A DNA stretch of 64,000 nt from Streptomyces noursei (GTDB lineage: Bacteria > Actinomycetota > Actinomycetes > Streptomycetales > Streptomycetaceae). Positions 36,173 to 58,931 of the stretch are shown one piece after another. Each line of letters begins with the position of its first letter. Position 1 is the first letter of the stretch. The notes below the pieces were generated by a model. The model was not told the DNA's origin. It ran no database searches and was given only the letters and a program-made list of their open reading frames with translations. The position numbers and the translations under genes are program-made. The stretch lies in contig NZ_LWBU01000405.1 in the NCBI RefSeq assembly GCF_001646665.1, forward strand, positions 62,001-126,000. The letters are read 5' to 3'.

Positions 36173-39703
<3,531 letters not shown>

Positions 39704-42054: not shown

Positions 42055-42834
42055 ATGCCCCTGACACGGATGCCCCGGCCGTCGGCGCCCACCGCGGCGG
42101 CGGTGCTCGCCGCGACGCTCGCCGCGTCGTTCCTCACCGGGTGCGACGCGGCCGGTCTCGTCGACGGCGGCGGGACCGCCGGGCCCGGGCCGGCCCGCGC
42201 CGCCGGGGTCGTCCCGCTGGACAACCCGGACGGGACGAGGCCGGGCCTCGCGCCCCTCGCCTCCGACGCCGACCGGGCGGAGGCCCGCCGGCTCGTGGAG
42301 ACGCTCACCGTGAAGGGGCGCGGGCCCCGGACCGGGTACGACCGCGACGAGTTCGGGTACGCCTGGATGGACACCGCCGACGGCGTACCGCTGGCCCGCA
42401 ACGGCTGCGACACCCGCAACGACCTCCTGCGCCGGGACGGCCGGGAGGTGCGGCTCCGCTCCGGTTCGGACTGCGTGGTGGTCGCGATGACGCTGCACGA
42501 CCCGTACACCGGCAAGGCCATCGTGTGGAAGAAGGCGGAGGCGGCCGCGGTGCAGATAGACCACGTCGTCCCGCTGTCCTACAGCTGGCAGATGGGCGCC
42601 TCGCGCTGGCCGGAGAGTAGGCGCGAGCAACTGGCGAACGACCCGCTGAACCTGCTGCCGGTGGACGGGCCGTCCAACAGCCGCAAGGGGGACTCCGGTC
42701 CGGCGTCCTGGCTGCCGCCGGACCGGTCGGTGCGGTGCGCGTACGCCGTGCGGTTCGCGCAGGTCGCGAAGAAGTACGCGCTGCCGGTCACCGCCGCGGA
42801 CAAGGACACGATGCTGCGGCAGTGCGGCGGCTGA
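42055..42834 (+). CDS. DUF1524/HNH-family secreted nuclease lipoprotein
   Basis: 259 residues: signal peptide with lipobox (AATLAASFLTGC, Cys about residue 30), then an extracytoplasmic domain with the HNH signature QIDHVVPLSYSWQMGASRW and downstream NDPLNLLPVDGPSNSRKGDSGPASWLPP, the Asn/His layout of the DUF1524 family. Probably a metal-dependent DNase/RNase at the cell surface, perhaps for nutrient release; substrate unproven. Two cysteine pairs (CDTRN, CVVV and C-terminal RCAY, QCGG) could form disulphides. A TACGAT hexamer ends 6 bp before the ATG, so the transcript may be leaderless. Confidence 0.85.
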   Translation: MPLTRMPRPSAPTAAAVLAATLAASFLTGCDAAGLVDGGGTAGPGPARAAGVVPLDNPDGTRPGLAPLASDADRAEARRLVETLTVKGRGPRTGYDRDEFGYAWMDTADGVPLARNGCDTRNDLLRRDGREVRLRSGSDCVVVAMTLHDPYTGKAIVWKKAEAAAVQIDHVVPLSYSWQMGASRWPESRREQLANDPLNLLPVDGPSNSRKGDSGPASWLPPDRSVRCAYAVRFAQVAKKYALPVTAADKDTMLRQCGG

Positions 42835-43748: not shown

Positions 43749-44522
43749 TTACTGCGCGCCGAGTTCGTCGAGGTCGAGAATGTCCTTGGCGGCCGGCTTC
43801 TTCGCCGCGACCGGCTTGTCGTAGTCCCGGAAGGACATGGTGCCCGGCTCCTCGCCGCCCTTCTGCTCGATCTTCAGCAGGTAGGGCTCGCCCTCCGTGG
43901 CGACGTAGATCTTGTACGTCGCCGCGCCGTCCTTCTCGGTGAGTATCAGCGCCTTCTTGCCGTCGACGGTGGTCTCCGCGCCCCGCTGGGCGAAGTTGAT
44001 GCCCGTCTCGAACTCGTAGAGCATCGTGTCGAGTTCGCACATCTCCAGGCTGTCCTTCGCCTCGGGGTCCGTGGCGTCGGTCTTCATCCAGCGGCCCTTG
44101 AGCATCTTCAGGACCGCCTCCGTCTCCTCCGCGGAGCCGCCCTCGTTCTGCTCGCGCAGGAAGGCCTCGTCGAAGCGCATGTAGGCGTCCTCGCCCGTCT
44201 TGATGAGCTCCATGGTGCCGGTGGAGCCCATGGTCATGGTTCCCGCGCACCGGCCCTTGGTGTCCATGGCCATGAAGGCCTTGATCTGGCCGTCGGCCGT
44301 CTTCAGGTTCGCGTCGAGGGTGAGGGATTCGGCCGTCTTGGTCGCCTTGACGGCCTTGTTGGCGATCTGCGGGCCGGACAGGCCGGGGAACGGGCCGCTG
44401 TCCTTCGCCTGGCCCCCGCCCGGGGAGCCGGACGGGCCGCAGGCCGTGAGGCCGAGCGCGGCGACGGCGCAGAGGGCGGTCAGCACGGAGCGGGTGAGGG
44501 CGCGGGGGGCGGTGGAAGACAT
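43749..44522 (-). CDS. lipoprotein (LppX/LprG-like)
   Basis: 257 residues: signal peptide with lipobox LGLTAC (Cys about 28), a Gly/Ser linker, then a beta-rich domain with repeated motifs on a theme of SLTLDANLKTADGQIKAFMAMD and MELIKTGEDAYMRFDEAFL, characteristic of actinobacterial LppX/LprAFG-type lipoproteins that bind hydrophobic ligands. Probably anchored outside the membrane. The specific ligand is unknown. It lies 55 bp downstream of a membrane protein gene on the same strand and may share its transcript. The stop is TAA, rare in this genome. Confidence 0.75.
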   Translation of the reverse strand: MSSTAPRALTRSVLTALCAVAALGLTACGPSGSPGGGQAKDSGPFPGLSGPQIANKAVKATKTAESLTLDANLKTADGQIKAFMAMDTKGRCAGTMTMGSTGTMELIKTGEDAYMRFDEAFLREQNEGGSAEETEAVLKMLKGRWMKTDATDPEAKDSLEMCELDTMLYEFETGINFAQRGAETTVDGKKALILTEKDGAATYKIYVATEGEPYLLKIEQKGGEEPGTMSFRDYDKPVAAKKPAAKDILDLDELGAQ

Positions 44523-44577: not shown

Positions 44578-45486
44578 TCAGAGCTTCAGGTCCCACTGGG
44601 TGGCGTCGTAGTCGAAGCCGGGGGAGACCTCGACGGTCAGGGACTTGGCGTCGGCGGGGGCGTCGAAGGCGTACTTCACCGTGGCCTTCTTGCCGGGCAG
44701 GATGCTGCCGGTGAAGCCCTCGCCGTACGTCTCGCCGTCGAAGATCTCCTCGGCGGCGACCCCGTCGGCACCCGCGCGGGCGCTCACGGTGAGGCCGTCG
44801 GTGGAGAACTTCTCCTTGCCGGCGTTCTCGACGGTGATCGTCAGCTCGTGGACCTTGTTGCCCTCGGTGTGGCCGATCGCGAACTCGCCCGGCTTGACGG
44901 AGGTGGCCGCGGAGACGGTCACCTGGAGGTCGTCGTCGTAGATCGAGGTGTCGCCGGCGGCCAGCGGCTTGCCCTTGGCGGCCTCCTCGGTGGCCTCGGC
45001 GTCCCCGGCGGGCTTGCCGGACGCGGTGCCGCCGCTGCCGGCGGCCGGGTCCTTGGGAGCCGTGCTGCTCGTCGACTTGACGGCCTCGTTCACGGCGTCG
45101 TCCACGACCTTGTAGAGGAGGACCGCGCCGACGACGGACAGGATCATGGCGACCAGGCCGAGGATCGCGCCCGCCGTGGTCACGCCCTTGTTGACGGCCT
45201 CGCCCCGCTTGACGCGGCCGCGGCCCGCCAGGCCGAGGACCAGGGCGATGAGACCGAGGAGGCCGGCGAGCCAGAACATCAGCGGGATGACGCCCGCGAG
45301 GGTGCCGATGATGCCGAGGATCAGGGCCGCGGTGCCCAGTCCGTTGCGGGCCGGACGCGACGGCTGCTCGTAGGCCGGGGCGGCCCCGAACTGGCCGGGT
45401 CCACCGCCGTACGCGCCGGGGGCGCCGCCGTACTGGCCCGCTCCGGGCTGGGTGCCGTGCTGGGGCTGCTGCGTGAAGTCGGACAT
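44578..45486 (-). CDS. DUF4190/DUF4352-type membrane protein
   Basis: 302 residues: a Gln/Gly/Tyr-rich N-terminus (about 1-50, PGAGQYGGAPGAYGGGPGQFG), two to three hydrophobic helices (LGTAALILGIIGTLAGVIPLMFWLAGLLGLIALVLGLAGRGRVKRGEA... then AGAILGLVAMILSVVGAVLLYKVV) matching the DUF4190 layout, then an extracytoplasmic Ig-like domain (DLQVTVSAATSVKPGEF...HELTITVENAGKEKFSTDG) of DUF4352 type. Likely an envelope protein of unknown role. ATG 45486; followed by the lipoprotein gene. Confidence 0.8.
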   Translation of the reverse strand: MSDFTQQPQHGTQPGAGQYGGAPGAYGGGPGQFGAAPAYEQPSRPARNGLGTAALILGIIGTLAGVIPLMFWLAGLLGLIALVLGLAGRGRVKRGEAVNKGVTTAGAILGLVAMILSVVGAVLLYKVVDDAVNEAVKSTSSTAPKDPAAGSGGTASGKPAGDAEATEEAAKGKPLAAGDTSIYDDDLQVTVSAATSVKPGEFAIGHTEGNKVHELTITVENAGKEKFSTDGLTVSARAGADGVAAEEIFDGETYGEGFTGSILPGKKATVKYAFDAPADAKSLTVEVSPGFDYDATQWDLKL

Positions 45487-45573
45487 GGGTGCCCTCCCGG
45501 ACAGTGACATGGCTGTGTGCCGGGGCCTGTGGCAGCTGCCCCGTGTGGCGATGGGTCAATAAGACCAGAGCGT

Positions 45574-45597
45574 GTGAACCGAGTCAACACGGTTCAC
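45574..45597. promoter_or_regulatory. inverted repeat GTGAACCG-N8-CGGTTCAC
   Basis: Perfect 8-bp arms (45574-45581/45590-45597) in the 201-bp divergent gap between the DUF4352 protein and the methylase-like gene; a second small palindrome TCACACTGTGA is at 45613-45623. Either could be an operator. A TAGGAT hexamer at 45648-45653 may be the -10 box of the methylase-like gene. Confidence 0.45.
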
Positions 45598-45687: not shown

Positions 45688-47823
45688 GTGCCGGAGAACG
45701 CAGCAGAGGTGACCGCGGCCGGGATCGCCCGCCTCGCCGGGGTGGGGCGTGCCGCGGTCAGCAACTGGCGGCGCCGGCACGCCGACTTCCCCAAGCCCGT
45801 CGGCGGCACCGAGACCAGTCCGTCGTTCTCGCTCGCCGACGTCGAACGGTGGCTGCGCGTCCAGGGCAAGCTCGCCGAGGTGCCGCTGCGGGAGCGGGTC
45901 TGGCAGCAGATCGCCGGCCACCCCGCCGGAGCCGTCACCGCCCTCGTCCACACCGGCTGCGCGCTCCTCGTCGTACGCGACAGGCCCAGCGGCTGGCTGG
46001 AGATGACCGCCGTGTCCGACGAGCGGATGGCCCGACTCCTGCCGCCCGCCCTGGAAGAGGTCCTGACCCTCCGTCTGGGACCCGAGCGGCCCGTCCCCAC
46101 CCCGAACCCCACCGAGACGGCCCCGTCCGTCCCCCTGCTGCGCGCCGCCGCCGAACTCGCCGCCGAGACGGGCGCCCGGCAGGCCTTCGAGTTCCTCCTC
46201 GGCCGCCACCTGGACGCCAATCCCCGCCAGTACACCCTGACCCCGCCCGGCCCGGCCTCCCTCATGGCCGAGCTCGCGGGCCCGGCCGGGACCGTGCTCG
46301 ACCCCGCCTGCGGCACCGGCGCCCTGCTGCGCGCCGTCACCCGCCCCACCGCCCTGTACGCCCAGGAGGCCGACCGCGACCTGGCCGCGCTCACCGCGCT
46401 CCGCCTGGCCCTCCAGTCCGGCGCCGACGTCCGCGTCCGGGCCGGCGACTCACTGCGCTCCGACGCCTTCCCGCGGCTCACCGCCGACGCGGTGCTCTGC
46501 CACCCGCCGTTCAACGAACGCAACTGGGGCCACGAGGAACTGGCCTACGACCCGCGCTGGGAGTACGGCTTCCCCGCCCGCACCGAGTCGGAACTGGCCT
46601 GGGTGCAGCACGCCCTGGCCCGGCTGCGCCCCGGCGGGACCGCCGTCCTGCTGATGCCCCCCGCCGCCGCCTCGCGCCGCTCCGGCCGCCGCATCCGCGC
46701 CGACCTGCTGCGGCGCGGCGCGCTGCGGGCGGTCGTCGCCCTGCCGGCCGGCGCGGCACCCCCGTACGGCATCCCGCTCCACCTGTGGGTGCTGCGCAAG
46801 CCGGTCGCGGGCGTCCCGGCCCCGCCCGCGCTGCTGGTCGTGGACACCGCCGAGCACACCGACACCGGCCGCGACAAGCTCGACTGGCCGGCCGTCCACT
46901 CCGCCGTGCTCGACGCCTGGCAGCCCTTCGACAAGCACGGCACCGTCGAGGAGCGCCCCGGCGGCCACCGCTGCGTGCCGGTCATCGAACTCCTCGACGA
47001 CGACGTCGACCTCGCCCCCGCCCGCCACCTGCCGCCCCCGCCGGCCGTCGGCGGCGCGGAGGAACTGGCCGGTGTCCGCGACCGGCTGACGGCCGTGCTG
47101 CGCCGCACCGGCGAGCTGACCCCGCCGCCCGCCCGCACCGCCGCGCACCCTGAGCCCGCCCGCCTCCCCGGCGTCACCGTCGGCGAACTGGCCCGCACCG
47201 GCGCCCTGGAACTGCGCGCGGGCGGCACCGGAACCGCCCCCGCGAGCGGCACCGCGGTCACCGTCCCCGGCGCGCCCGCCGCCACCGCCCCCTCCGGCAC
47301 GGCGGCCGCCGCCACGGCAGGCGACGGCCCCGCCTCCGTACCCGTCCTCACCGAGCAGGACGTCCTGGCCGGCCAGGGGCCCTCCGGGAGCCTCCCCGAG
47401 GGCGCCGCCGAGGAGCCCGTGCTCGTCCGCGCCGGCGACGTCGTCGTCCCGGTCCTCGGCGGCGGGTCGATCGCCCGGGTCGTCGACGACGCCACCGCGG
47501 GCGCCGCCCTGGGCCGCAACCTCCAGCTGCTGCGCCCCGACCCGGCGGCGATCGATCCCTGGTTCCTCGCCGGCTTCCTGCGCGGCACCGCCAACAACCG
47601 GCAGGCCAGCAGCTACGCCTCGACGGCGACCCGGCTCGACGTGCGGCGCCTCCAACTGCCCCGGCTGCCGCTCACCGAGCAGCAGCGGTACGGGGAGACG
47701 TTCCGCGCGCTCGCCGAGTTCGAGGAAGCCCTGCGCCTCGCGGGGCGGCTGGGGGAGCGGCTGGTGCAGGGCATGTACGACGGACTGACGGACGGCACGG
47801 TGGAGGCCGCACCGGGCGGGTGA
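45688..47823 (+). CDS. HTH - N6-adenine-methylase-like - specificity-like fusion protein
   Basis: 711 residues. 10-70: a MerR/Rep-like HTH (AAGIARLAGVGRAAVSNWRRRHADFPKPVGG). About 165-400: HsdM-like SAM domain with motif I D205-PACGTGALL. Motif IV, normally N/D-P-P-F/Y, reads H272-P-P-F275 (CHPPFNERNWG), so the catalytic Asn/Asp is replaced by His. About 570-700: HsdS-like half domain (LVRAGDVVVPVLGGGSIARVV...PWFLAGFLRG...LDVRRLQLPRLPLTEQQRYG). No restriction gene is nearby. It may bind DNA and SAM without methylating and act as a regulator. GTG 45688 behind AAGGGAG. Confidence 0.85.
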   Translation: MPENAAEVTAAGIARLAGVGRAAVSNWRRRHADFPKPVGGTETSPSFSLADVERWLRVQGKLAEVPLRERVWQQIAGHPAGAVTALVHTGCALLVVRDRPSGWLEMTAVSDERMARLLPPALEEVLTLRLGPERPVPTPNPTETAPSVPLLRAAAELAAETGARQAFEFLLGRHLDANPRQYTLTPPGPASLMAELAGPAGTVLDPACGTGALLRAVTRPTALYAQEADRDLAALTALRLALQSGADVRVRAGDSLRSDAFPRLTADAVLCHPPFNERNWGHEELAYDPRWEYGFPARTESELAWVQHALARLRPGGTAVLLMPPAAASRRSGRRIRADLLRRGALRAVVALPAGAAPPYGIPLHLWVLRKPVAGVPAPPALLVVDTAEHTDTGRDKLDWPAVHSAVLDAWQPFDKHGTVEERPGGHRCVPVIELLDDDVDLAPARHLPPPPAVGGAEELAGVRDRLTAVLRRTGELTPPPARTAAHPEPARLPGVTVGELARTGALELRAGGTGTAPASGTAVTVPGAPAATAPSGTAAAATAGDGPASVPVLTEQDVLAGQGPSGSLPEGAAEEPVLVRAGDVVVPVLGGGSIARVVDDATAGAALGRNLQLLRPDPAAIDPWFLAGFLRGTANNRQASSYASTATRLDVRRLQLPRLPLTEQQRYGETFRALAEFEEALRLAGRLGERLVQGMYDGLTDGTVEAAPGG

Positions 47824-47932: not shown

Positions 47933-48604
47933 ATGCACGGCCACGGCCACGCACCGCCTCAGCCAGGGCGCCCCGCCGACGGCACGCTGGTCGTCCTGCG
48001 CACGCTCTTCGTGGTCCTCACCGTGCTGAGCTGCGGCTTCCTCGCCTGGACCCCGCTGCTGCGGCTGGCCGTCGTCACCCGGAAGGCCCTCGACTGGGCC
48101 CTGTTCGGCCTTCTCCTGCTGTCCACGGCCGGGATCTTCGTCTTCCTCGGCAAGACGGTTCCCGAGGACGAGAAGCAGGAGATGAGCGACGGGGCGGCGC
48201 TCTTCTTCGGCGGGTGGATGATCGTCACCATCGTGGGCGTCACCATCTACTACCTGATCGCCGAGATACGGCACTACGGGCGCCCCGTCCCGCCCGTCGG
48301 CGGGTACGGGCCCGCCCGGGCCACCGGGTACGGCTACCCGCCCGTCGCGGCCCCGGCGCAGCAGACCTTCCCGCAGCAGGCGACGCCCCCGCCGCTCCAC
48401 CAGGCGCCCCGGCCCCCGGCCGCCGGGCCCGTCCCCGCCCCGCCGGCCCCCCGGCCGCACCCGCAGTCCCAGGCCCCCCACACCCCGCCGCAGCCCTCCG
48501 CCAAGCCGAAGTCGCAGCGCATCGACCAGGTGCGCGCCGAGCTGGACGAGCTCAGCGACCTGCTGCGCCGGGAGCCCCAGGACCCGCGGGAAGAGGGCAA
48601 GTGA
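47933..48604 (+). CDS. membrane protein coupled to a Ser/Thr kinase
   Basis: 223 residues with three hydrophobic helices in the first 115 residues (VLRTLFVVLTVLSCGFLAWTPLL; DWALFGLLLLSTAGIFVFLG; ALFFGGWMIVTIVGVTIYYLI), then a long Pro/Gln-rich cytoplasmic tail ending in a charged helix (IDQVRAELDELSDLLRREPQ). Its stop overlaps the kinase start (GTGA, 48601-48604), so the two are translationally coupled and the membrane protein may recruit or be a substrate of the kinase. The family is unnamed as far as I know. Confidence 0.8.
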   Translation: MHGHGHAPPQPGRPADGTLVVLRTLFVVLTVLSCGFLAWTPLLRLAVVTRKALDWALFGLLLLSTAGIFVFLGKTVPEDEKQEMSDGAALFFGGWMIVTIVGVTIYYLIAEIRHYGRPVPPVGGYGPARATGYGYPPVAAPAQQTFPQQATPPPLHQAPRPPAAGPVPAPPAPRPHPQSQAPHTPPQPSAKPKSQRIDQVRAELDELSDLLRREPQDPREEGK

Positions 48605-50127
48605 ACGGCCGGGTGATTTCCGGGCGGTACGAGCTGTCCACCGTCATAGGCCAGGGCGGCATGGGCCAGGTCTGGACCGCCTACGACGGGCGGCTCGACC
48701 GCCGCGTCGCCGTCAAGCTGCTGCGCCCCGACCACATGGCCGCGGCTACCGGCGCCGACGAGATGCGCCGCCGCTTCGTCCGCGAGTGCCGCGTCACCGC
48801 CCAGGTCTCCCACCCGGGCCTGGTCACCGTGCACGACGCCGGCAGCGACGGCGACGACCTGTTCCTGGTGATGCAGTACGTGGAGGGCGCCGACCTCGCC
48901 GACCACCTGGCCGAGCACGACCCCTACCCGTGGCAGTGGGCGGTGTCCGTCGCCGCGCAGCTGTGCGCGGTGCTCGCCGCCGTGCACGCCGTGCCGATCG
49001 TCCACCGCGACCTCAAGCCGCGGAACGTCATGGTGAAGCCCGACGGCACGGTCACCGTCCTCGACCTCGGCGTCGCCTCCGTCATCGACACCGACACCAC
49101 CCGCCTCACCCACACCGGCTCGCCCATCGGCAGCCCCGCCTACATGGCGCCCGAACAGGCCATGGGCGGCGCGGTCGGCCCGTACACCGACCTGTACGCG
49201 CTCGGGGCGCTGCTCCACGAACTGCTCAGCGGCAACGTGCCGTTCGCCGGCTCCACCGCGCTCGGCGTGCTCCACCGCCACCTCTACGAGCCGCCGCTGC
49301 CCGTCCGCCAGCTGCGCCCGGAGATCCCCGACGCGCTGGAGGCCCTGGTCCTGCGGCTGCTGGCCAAGGACCCGCAGCACCGGCCGTCCGGCGCGCAGGA
49401 GGTGTACGAGGCGCTGGCCCCGCTGCTGCCCGCGCGCGGCGTCCCGACCGGCCCGCTCGACCCCACGCGCCCCTTCCTGCGCCCGCACGCCCCCTGGCCC
49501 GACCGGGTCACCACGCCCCCGCCGGTGCCGCAGCCGACCGTCCCGCCCGCCGCGACCCGCCCCGACGTGGCGGCCGCCGTGGACGAGGTCAAGCGGCTGC
49601 TCGGCGAGGGCAGCATCACGCAGGCCGTCGACATCCTCGGCGGGATCCTCCCGGCGGCCGCCGCCGAGCACGGCGAGCACTCCCCGGTCGTCCGGATCCT
49701 GCGCAAGCAGTACGCGACGACGCTGATGGACGACGGCCAGTTCCGGCGCGCCCTGCCCGAACTGCGGAGGCTCGCCGACGACCGGGCGGCCGAGGCGGGC
49801 CCGGCCGACCCGCAGACGCTGCAGTTCCGGTACGACGCGGCCCTGTGCCTGGAGCAGTTGGGCGAGACGGCCGCCGCGCTCGCCGAGTACCGCGCGGTCC
49901 TGCCCTACTACACGGGCAGCGGGTCCGCCGCGGCCGACCCGGCCCGCGCCTTCGACATCCGGCACCGCATCGGGCACCTGCTCCTCGCCATGGGCGACCA
50001 CACGGCGGCCCAGCAGCAGCTCCAGAACCTGCTGTACGACACCGAGCGGGTGTACGGCCCGTACCACCCGCTGCCGGCGGAACTGCGCCGGGCGCTCGAA
50101 CGGCAGCGGCAGATGCGCGGCGTGTGA
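48601..50127 (+). CDS. PknB-type serine/threonine protein kinase with TPR-like C-terminus
   Basis: 508 residues. Kinase domain 8-275: Gly loop IGQGGMGQVW, K39 (VAVKLL), H135-R-D137-LKPRN, DLG in place of DFG (VLDLGVAS), APE (YMAPEQA). After a Pro-rich linker, residues about 320-508 form helical TPR-like repeats (AVDEVKRLLGEGSITQAVDILGGIL...RRALPELRRLADDRA...LEQLGETAAALAEYRAVLPYY...MGDHTAAQQQLQNLL). There is no C-terminal membrane helix, so the protein is soluble and probably held at the membrane by its coupled partner. All residues needed for phosphotransfer are present. Confidence 0.9.
   Translation: MNGRVISGRYELSTVIGQGGMGQVWTAYDGRLDRRVAVKLLRPDHMAAATGADEMRRRFVRECRVTAQVSHPGLVTVHDAGSDGDDLFLVMQYVEGADLADHLAEHDPYPWQWAVSVAAQLCAVLAAVHAVPIVHRDLKPRNVMVKPDGTVTVLDLGVASVIDTDTTRLTHTGSPIGSPAYMAPEQAMGGAVGPYTDLYALGALLHELLSGNVPFAGSTALGVLHRHLYEPPLPVRQLRPEIPDALEALVLRLLAKDPQHRPSGAQEVYEALAPLLPARGVPTGPLDPTRPFLRPHAPWPDRVTTPPPVPQPTVPPAATRPDVAAAVDEVKRLLGEGSITQAVDILGGILPAAAAEHGEHSPVVRILRKQYATTLMDDGQFRRALPELRRLADDRAAEAGPADPQTLQFRYDAALCLEQLGETAAALAEYRAVLPYYTGSGSAAADPARAFDIRHRIGHLLLAMGDHTAAQQQLQNLLYDTERVYGPYHPLPAELRRALERQRQMRGV

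Positions 50128-57267: not shown

Positions 57268-58931
<1,664 letters not shown>

Follow-up and report, generated by a model that had tools for sequence, protein, structure and literature searches.

A methylase-like protein with histidine at motif IV in a core Streptomyces locus: a possible DNA-binding regulator of restriction-type descent

What is the role of a protein that has the fold and the cofactor motif of an N6-adenine DNA methylase, but carries histidine where the catalytic Asn or Asp should be? The question is raised by a gene at 45688–47823 of the window, by which we mean the whole stretch of 64,000 nucleotides analysed here. The gene lies in the high-GC core chromosome of a Streptomyces-like actinomycete, with what we take to be an mfd-like gene at 36173 and an enolase-like gene at 57645. 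Public records annotate relatives of the protein as “N-6 DNA methylase”. Literature searches by topic returned no description of it, nor was a paper found under SCO3102–SCO3105, which we assume to be the locus tags.

The gene, its product and its locus

The open frame runs from a GTG at 45688 to 47823 and encodes 711 amino acids. This start agrees with the orthologues: most have [MV]P(D/E)... at the N-terminus and then VTAAGIARLAGVG. The features to which we refer are the following; neighbouring genes were called by a simple GC-frame script.

43749–44522, minus strand: lipoprotein-like protein without a Pfam family, possible operon partner of the 44578 gene
44578–45486, minus strand: divergent membrane or exported protein with DUF4352 (Pfam; DUF4190 below cut-off), candidate target
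45573–45589, plus strand: candidate operator TGTGAACCGAGTCAACA, an imperfect 7-3-7 dyad, with CGGTTCAC downstream
45688–47823, plus strand: HTH, N6-methylase-like and half-HsdS protein, HPPF in motif IV
45703–45885, plus strand: winged HTH, residues 6–66 (model secondary structure, omega, PADLOC mad1)
46300–46320, plus strand: motif I, DPACGTG (SAM binding), residues 205–211
46501–46512, plus strand: motif IV, HPPF, residues 272–275, His replacing the catalytic Asn/Asp
47170–47805, plus strand: HsdS-like half domain and C-terminal helix, residues ~495–706 (PADLOC Specificity_I)
47933–48604, plus strand: small Pro-rich protein with hydrophobic stretches, by eye a membrane protein, without a Pfam family
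48601–50127, plus strand: Ser/Thr protein kinase with a TPR tail (Pkinase 2e-44, TPR_12 2.5e-10)

The order is thus divergent gene, methylase-like gene, membrane protein and kinase, the last two genes overlapping at the start of the kinase. Further out, at 42070–42834, the window encodes a lipoprotein-like protein with a GmrSD_C/HNH nuclease domain (Pfam, 4e-16), and a gene of this kind is also found near mfd in several loci that lack the methylase gene.

The initial annotation had described a protein with an N-terminal HTH, an intact motif I, HPPF at motif IV and an HsdS-like half domain, and this architecture holds in every part. The AlphaFold2 model (mean pLDDT 91) has a winged HTH with helices at residues 10–17, 21–30 and 49–58 and strands at 37–40 and 45–48. 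The domain is also visible in the conservation and gives a weak PADLOC mad1 match (4.8e-5); a Pfam search up to E 1 returned no HTH, and comparison with PDB sequences gave no convincing match (best E 0.13). A helical domain separates the HTH from the methylase domain, which matches Pfam N6_Mtase over residues 166–374 (1.7e-27; 97 bits, above the gathering cut-off of 20.4). Type I M subunits are the nearest structures to the methylase part of the model (7vru_A, Z 33.3, rmsd 4.3, 383 aligned residues). phmmer aligns HPPF to the NPPF of the solved M subunits 7vru_A and 3khk_A, and His272 is placed in the pocket by alignment. Several PADLOC Specificity_I models cover residues ~553–706, the best at 5.5e-6.

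Motif IV and the cofactor site

Among 117 distinct core-type sequences, motif IV carries His in 114, Arg in three and Asn in none. HPPF/Y or RPPF/Y therefore stands in all of them at the place of the D/N/S-P-P-F/Y/W of active N6-adenine and N4-cytosine DNA methylases, which rules out a strain-specific mutation or a sequencing error. The His set includes the best 80 of at least 534 relatives from named genomes, hence the closest ones, and HPPF is present in 80 of these 80. At the genus level, 28 of 61 genomes carry the gene, each with HPPF; 27 of the copies have at least 65% identity, and the 28th is the divergent L066. Family- and class-level samples add eleven further His sequences (L092–L099, L104, L105 and L251, the last with HPPY). 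The three Arg sequences (L101, L103 and L118) are all syntenic sisters of the His gene. The 39 unnamed His sequences were grouped after the motif was known, and the three same-locus Arg sequences are counted alongside them. Five duplicates, judged over residues 20–329, were removed, and G080, in which the gene is split across two contigs and motif IV is missing from the stretches, is excluded from the counts.

With the motif IV columns removed, a quick tree places the 40 included core-type sequences in one clade, with support of 89 and 94 at the two deepest forks (midpoint root). L055, with fewer than 400 aligned residues, was left out, and this tree, like the kinase tree described below, is a quick search with some long branches. 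Outside the clade, motif IV has Asn (NPPY in restriction loci, NPPF or NPPS elsewhere), Asp, Thr, Tyr, Ser, Gly or Ala, and again His in the distant relatives L122, L248, L252 and L253; L127 and the second methylases fell under the score limit of this comparison. Because the residue varies so much among these relatives, loss of the Asn probably happened repeatedly in the family, and here it appears to have become fixed in a vertically inherited core gene. Four family-level relatives (L109–L112) have lost motif I, which reads NPATTHG or DPATTHG, while NPPF, the HTH and the exact dyad are kept. They may represent the opposite way of losing methylation.

The cofactor site itself is well preserved, in accordance with the earlier view that the protein has the parts for DNA and SAM binding. 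Residues 205, 209 and 211, the acidic residue 227 and D254, which together cover motifs I–III, are kept in 113–114 of the 114 His sequences (D205 and G209 in 114, G211 in 113), and D205, G209 and G211 also in three of three Arg sequences. The PPF/N/W surrounding motif IV is nearly invariant. Omega values, from a few pairs and a simple counting method, are 0.02–0.10 for the HTH in seven His-clade pairs, 0.04–0.21 for residues 266–375, the motif IV region, and 0.23–0.43 for the SAM-binding half, residues 161–265. The SAM half gives 0.18–0.24 in two restriction-linked pairs and 0.75 in one solitary pair with NPPF; the last value indicates that a relaxed SAM half is not peculiar to these pairs with His. 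The specificity half (residues 501–706) has a mean pairwise identity of 0.74 in the His clade against 0.55 in restriction-linked relatives, where the whole protein has 0.70 and 0.59, respectively. A more uniform specificity half fits a fixed DNA target and does not prove one.

Could the protein still be a methyltransferase? His might replace Asn as a hydrogen-bond partner, or the substrate might be other than DNA adenine, whether a different base, RNA or the side chain of a protein. The almost unchanged SAM residues and motif IV surroundings are compatible with an active enzyme too, the strong constraint on residues 266–375 points the same way, and the nearest solved structure comes from a DNA- and SAH-bound M1M2S complex (7vru_A). 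However, three syntenic sisters have Arg, and other relatives have Tyr, Gly, Ala, Thr or Ser at the same position, which is unlike one conserved new chemistry. We therefore regard continued methyl transfer as unlikely. The initial annotation had held that base methylation probably does not occur. Replacement of the catalytic Asn in every orthologue examined strengthens that prediction short of proof, and we consider it very likely that the protein would not methylate bases.

The upstream dyad and the neighbouring genes

In the window, the dyad TGTGAAC-N3-GTCAACA (45573–45589) lies between the start of the divergent gene and the 45688 gene; the upstream regions of the orthologues share TGTGAACCGAGTCAACA, often followed by CGGTTCAC. 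With three mismatches or fewer and no more than 400 nt upstream, the dyad is present in all 80 named loci, the best 80 of at least 534, and is exact in 65. At up to four mismatches, it is found in none of 14 loci lacking the gene. Among the unnamed core sequences, it is present at up to three mismatches in 35 of 39, and the Arg sequences and L066 have degraded sites only, with four to five mismatches.

The dyad was first spotted in this window, and the core counts partly reflect common descent; unlinked paralogues are therefore the better test. The looser consensus TGTGAAYNNNGTCAAYR occurs exactly before eight of 13 solitary paralogues, all four motif-I-less relatives and the single L114, and the other five solitary paralogues have two to four mismatches to it; base-shuffled upstream regions reach two to four mismatches at best. 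No exact copy was found in 11 upstream regions of the mini, L100/L106/L107 and L119/L122 rows (one to four mismatches, four of them at one), in ten restriction-linked rows or in 15 class-level rows; L248 is too short for this comparison. The restriction-linked relatives have a variant of their own, TGAAAGC-N3-GTCAAA, within two mismatches in ten of ten and exact in seven, a motif read from the very sequences in which it was counted; it occurs in only three of 166 other upstream regions. Since these relatives thus have a related but different element, a site bound by the HTH would be no proof of a non-enzymatic role. The relatives of Streptosporangiales type have another upstream element, TGGTTGA-N4-YTTCACAAGC, exact in L243, L250, L255 and L090 and with one mismatch in L247.

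A conserved promoter-region dyad that tracks its gene, in 80 of the best 80 of at least 534 named loci against none of 14 gene-less loci, and that recurs before many unlinked paralogues is what would mark an autoregulator. Within Streptomycetaceae, the dyad accompanies the HTH-bearing family rather than a chromosomal position. This pattern suggests autoregulation, and we consider it likely that the gene would be controlled through this site. The motif-I-less relatives keep the HTH and the dyad without the SAM motif, so DNA binding would be the more widely shared trait.

How far would such regulation extend? In genome-wide scans, the exact TGTGAACNNNGTCAACA is found at the methylase-like gene in ten of 11 carrier genomes (the exception is G051) and nowhere in seven non-carriers; G040 has a second exact copy elsewhere, where the surrounding 3 kb contain no HTH gene. 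One-mismatch scans give one to five extra matches in every genome, carrier or not. One of these, GGTGAACGCGGTCAACA, is present in most genomes, including non-carriers, and a reversed control pattern also gives zero to two matches per genome at one mismatch. About one exact dyad per genome argues for a local role over a wide regulon. The earlier proposal of a DNA-binding regulator is thus supported by the conserved dyad before the gene, with a predicted regulon that looks local.

The dyad might, of course, belong to an unrelated transcription factor, in which case the protein would regulate nothing there. Its 5′ part resembles the Streptomyces Crp motif, TGTGA...TCA being like Crp-type sites, and a promoter site would vanish along with its gene. 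The dyad's near-single exact occurrence in carriers and absence from the seven non-carriers, its presence before many unlinked members of the family and the separate variant of the restriction-linked members speak against this, and we give the idea little chance.

The neighbours offer candidate targets and inputs. Some divergent gene is present upstream in all 38 other core loci, and a crude hydropathy scan finds a strongly hydrophobic stretch in the product of 33 of the 38. The window's divergent protein has a clear homologue in 15 of 39 core loci and in 24 of the best 80 of at least 534 named loci, and in none of 14 gene-less loci; these counts exclude the DUF4352-type gene as an invariant partner. 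The 500 nt upstream of the membrane-protein gene contain no divergent gene in 11 of the 14 gene-less loci; the other three are L068 and L300, which retain a divergent lipoprotein-like gene, and L301, with a 60-aa call. mfd lies within the fetched stretch at 29 of 39 core loci.

The kinase follows on the same strand in 40 of 42 core loci, the other two ending at contig ends, and in 76 of the best 80 of at least 534 named loci. Three of the four exceptions also end at contig ends. The fourth is L156 (Streptomyces varsoviensis), whose HPPF gene is followed by the next core genes, without the membrane protein or the kinase in the following 3.9 kb. Conversely, a search of 32 gene-less genomes with the kinase finds its orthologue kept in 14, with the membrane protein and the kinase still at the locus; 12 of them show no trace of the methylase gene, and two (L068 and L069) have remnants. 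An obligate partnership with the kinase is thus ruled out in both directions. In the kinase tree, ten of the 14 gene-less kinases are scattered over several places, and the order agrees with the methylase tree, where L105 is outermost and L101/L103/L118 branch off next, before the rest.

From a restriction-type subunit to a candidate regulator

Where does such a protein come from? Its NPPY relatives are encoded in type I restriction operons, alongside a second methylase and HsdR. Of the 11 type I-like restriction loci whose sequence extends past hsdR, nine (G025, G044, G026, G040, G014, G071, G090, G043 and G024, at L287–L291 and L338–L341) have a Ser/Thr kinase gene 0.2–2.7 kb further on, and these kinases have full-length homology to the window's kinase, at 41–45%. 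The other two, G006 (L337) and G052 (L342), have no kinase in the 12.6 and 6.3 kb, respectively, past hsdR. Solitary relatives have a kinase gene within 3 kb in 12 of 13 cases. Their kinases belong to several kinase clades, so the link was probably made repeatedly. Relatives with Asp, catalytically competent in that respect, also adjoin a kinase: L090, L243, L250 and L255 have DPPF and a kinase directly after. In L247, motif IV is NPPF and the stretch contains no kinase. At L108, L113 and L115, solitary HTH-methylase genes are accompanied by Ser/Thr kinase genes, one of them convergent and two upstream, possibly a kinase-methylase cluster.

This ancestry raises another alternative, a structural or specificity subunit that provides DNA recognition in trans to an active methylase or nuclease, like the M1-S part of M1-M2-S. 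The second methylase and HsdR beside the NPPY relatives, the origin of the nearest structure as one chain of the PacII M1-M2-S complex and the close second methylase in nine of 28 carrier genomes would all suit it. But no HsdR or second methylase is found among the core-locus neighbours, as a type I restriction-modification system would have, and 19 of the 28 carrier genomes lack a close second methylase, ten of them giving the His protein itself as the sole match; an active heterodimer is unsupported for those 19. We see only a slim chance for a role of this kind. A decaying restriction-modification relic without present function, which repeated gene loss and the remnants at two loci might suggest, is very improbable: decay is ruled out by omega in seven His-clade pairs (0.17–0.32 over the whole gene, the HTH and motif IV region far below 1), and the 61 genus genomes hold 27 full-length frames and one copy cut by a contig end.

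We therefore lean towards the 45688 protein being a domesticated pseudo-methyltransferase that works as a local DNA-binding regulator; on this view, an enzyme once used in virus defence would have turned into a regulator of genes. In the scheme we propose, a restriction-type modification subunit with its own HTH (HTH, N6-methylase and half specificity domain) would have settled at a core site in Streptomycetaceae and lost the catalytic Asn, which is now His, or Arg in one branch. The HTH, probably as a dimer, would bind the dyad and control both the gene that encodes it and the divergent gene, whose product mostly looks exported. More speculatively, binding to the dyad might be altered by SAM or SAH in the retained pocket, by the half specificity domain or by phosphorylation by the neighbouring kinase. 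SAM as the effector, as the initial annotation had it, is a tentative proposal with less than even odds, its suggested coupling to growth state is speculative, and input from the kinase is doubtful. It is tempting to join all of these. Descended from a kinase-linked type I modification subunit, a dead transcription factor with bound SAM would control itself and the exported protein encoded divergently, and would take a second input from the kinase; a single protein would then act as a switch that responds both to the level of SAM and to signalling at the membrane. In this full form, the proposal is rather unlikely, and L156, with the gene and no kinase, lowers the odds both for it and for kinase input.

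Streptomyces methylome and restriction-barrier studies would probably include the core gene among the methylases. If a dead methylase is indeed used as a regulator, the label “N-6 DNA methylase” misleads. In PMC9240718, three predicted methylases are deleted in S. roseosporus L30, and deletion of one, SroLm2 (838 aa, gamma type), retards growth on two minimal media; SroLm2 might be a relative of the 45688 gene. The family would also offer a traceable case of a defence enzyme turning into a host regulator, from NPPY relatives in restriction operons through intermediates with Asp, Arg or motif I loss to a candidate DNA site, and it shows a recurring link of HTH-methylase proteins with Ser/Thr kinases in actinomycetes.

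Among known systems, the type I M subunit or M-S fusion (PADLOC MTase_I PDLC03037; PDB 7vru/7vs4, PacII M1M2S; 3khk; 7eew) shares the methylase fold, motif I and the half specificity domain. PDLC03037 spans an NPPY relative end to end (952 bits), whereas it matches the 45688 protein in two stretches (398 bits). The latter differs in having HPPF instead of NPPF/Y, a fixed core locus with no HsdR or second methylase beside the gene and, compared with 7vru_A, one chain of the DNA- and SAH-bound PacII complex, an extra N-terminal HTH.

MADS, the methylation-associated defence system, comprises MAD1 (HTH), MAD2 (methylase), MAD5 (specificity) and MAD6 (kinase). In the 45688 protein, mad1- and mad2-like parts (and mad5 in a relative) are fused, and the kinase matches mad6. 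However, the NCBIfam MADS2 model gives 25 bits against a cut-off of 720, the 48601 kinase fits generic kinase models (PD-T4-6) better than mad6, and the catalytic residue is absent. Of the four neighbours scanned for the MADS gene set, the kinase matches mad6 and the three others have no PADLOC match, the HTH itself being weakly mad1-like.

METTL14 and other pseudo-methyltransferases retain the methylase fold after loss of the catalytic motif. METTL14 acts with an active partner, whereas none is visible for the 45688 protein in most carrier genomes.

A precedent in the way of working is M.SsoII, a cytosine-5 methylase whose N-terminal region, according to PMC3978073, regulates transcription of its own restriction system. 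M.SsoII is an active type II enzyme, whereas the 45688 protein is a catalytically substituted N6-type protein outside restriction systems.
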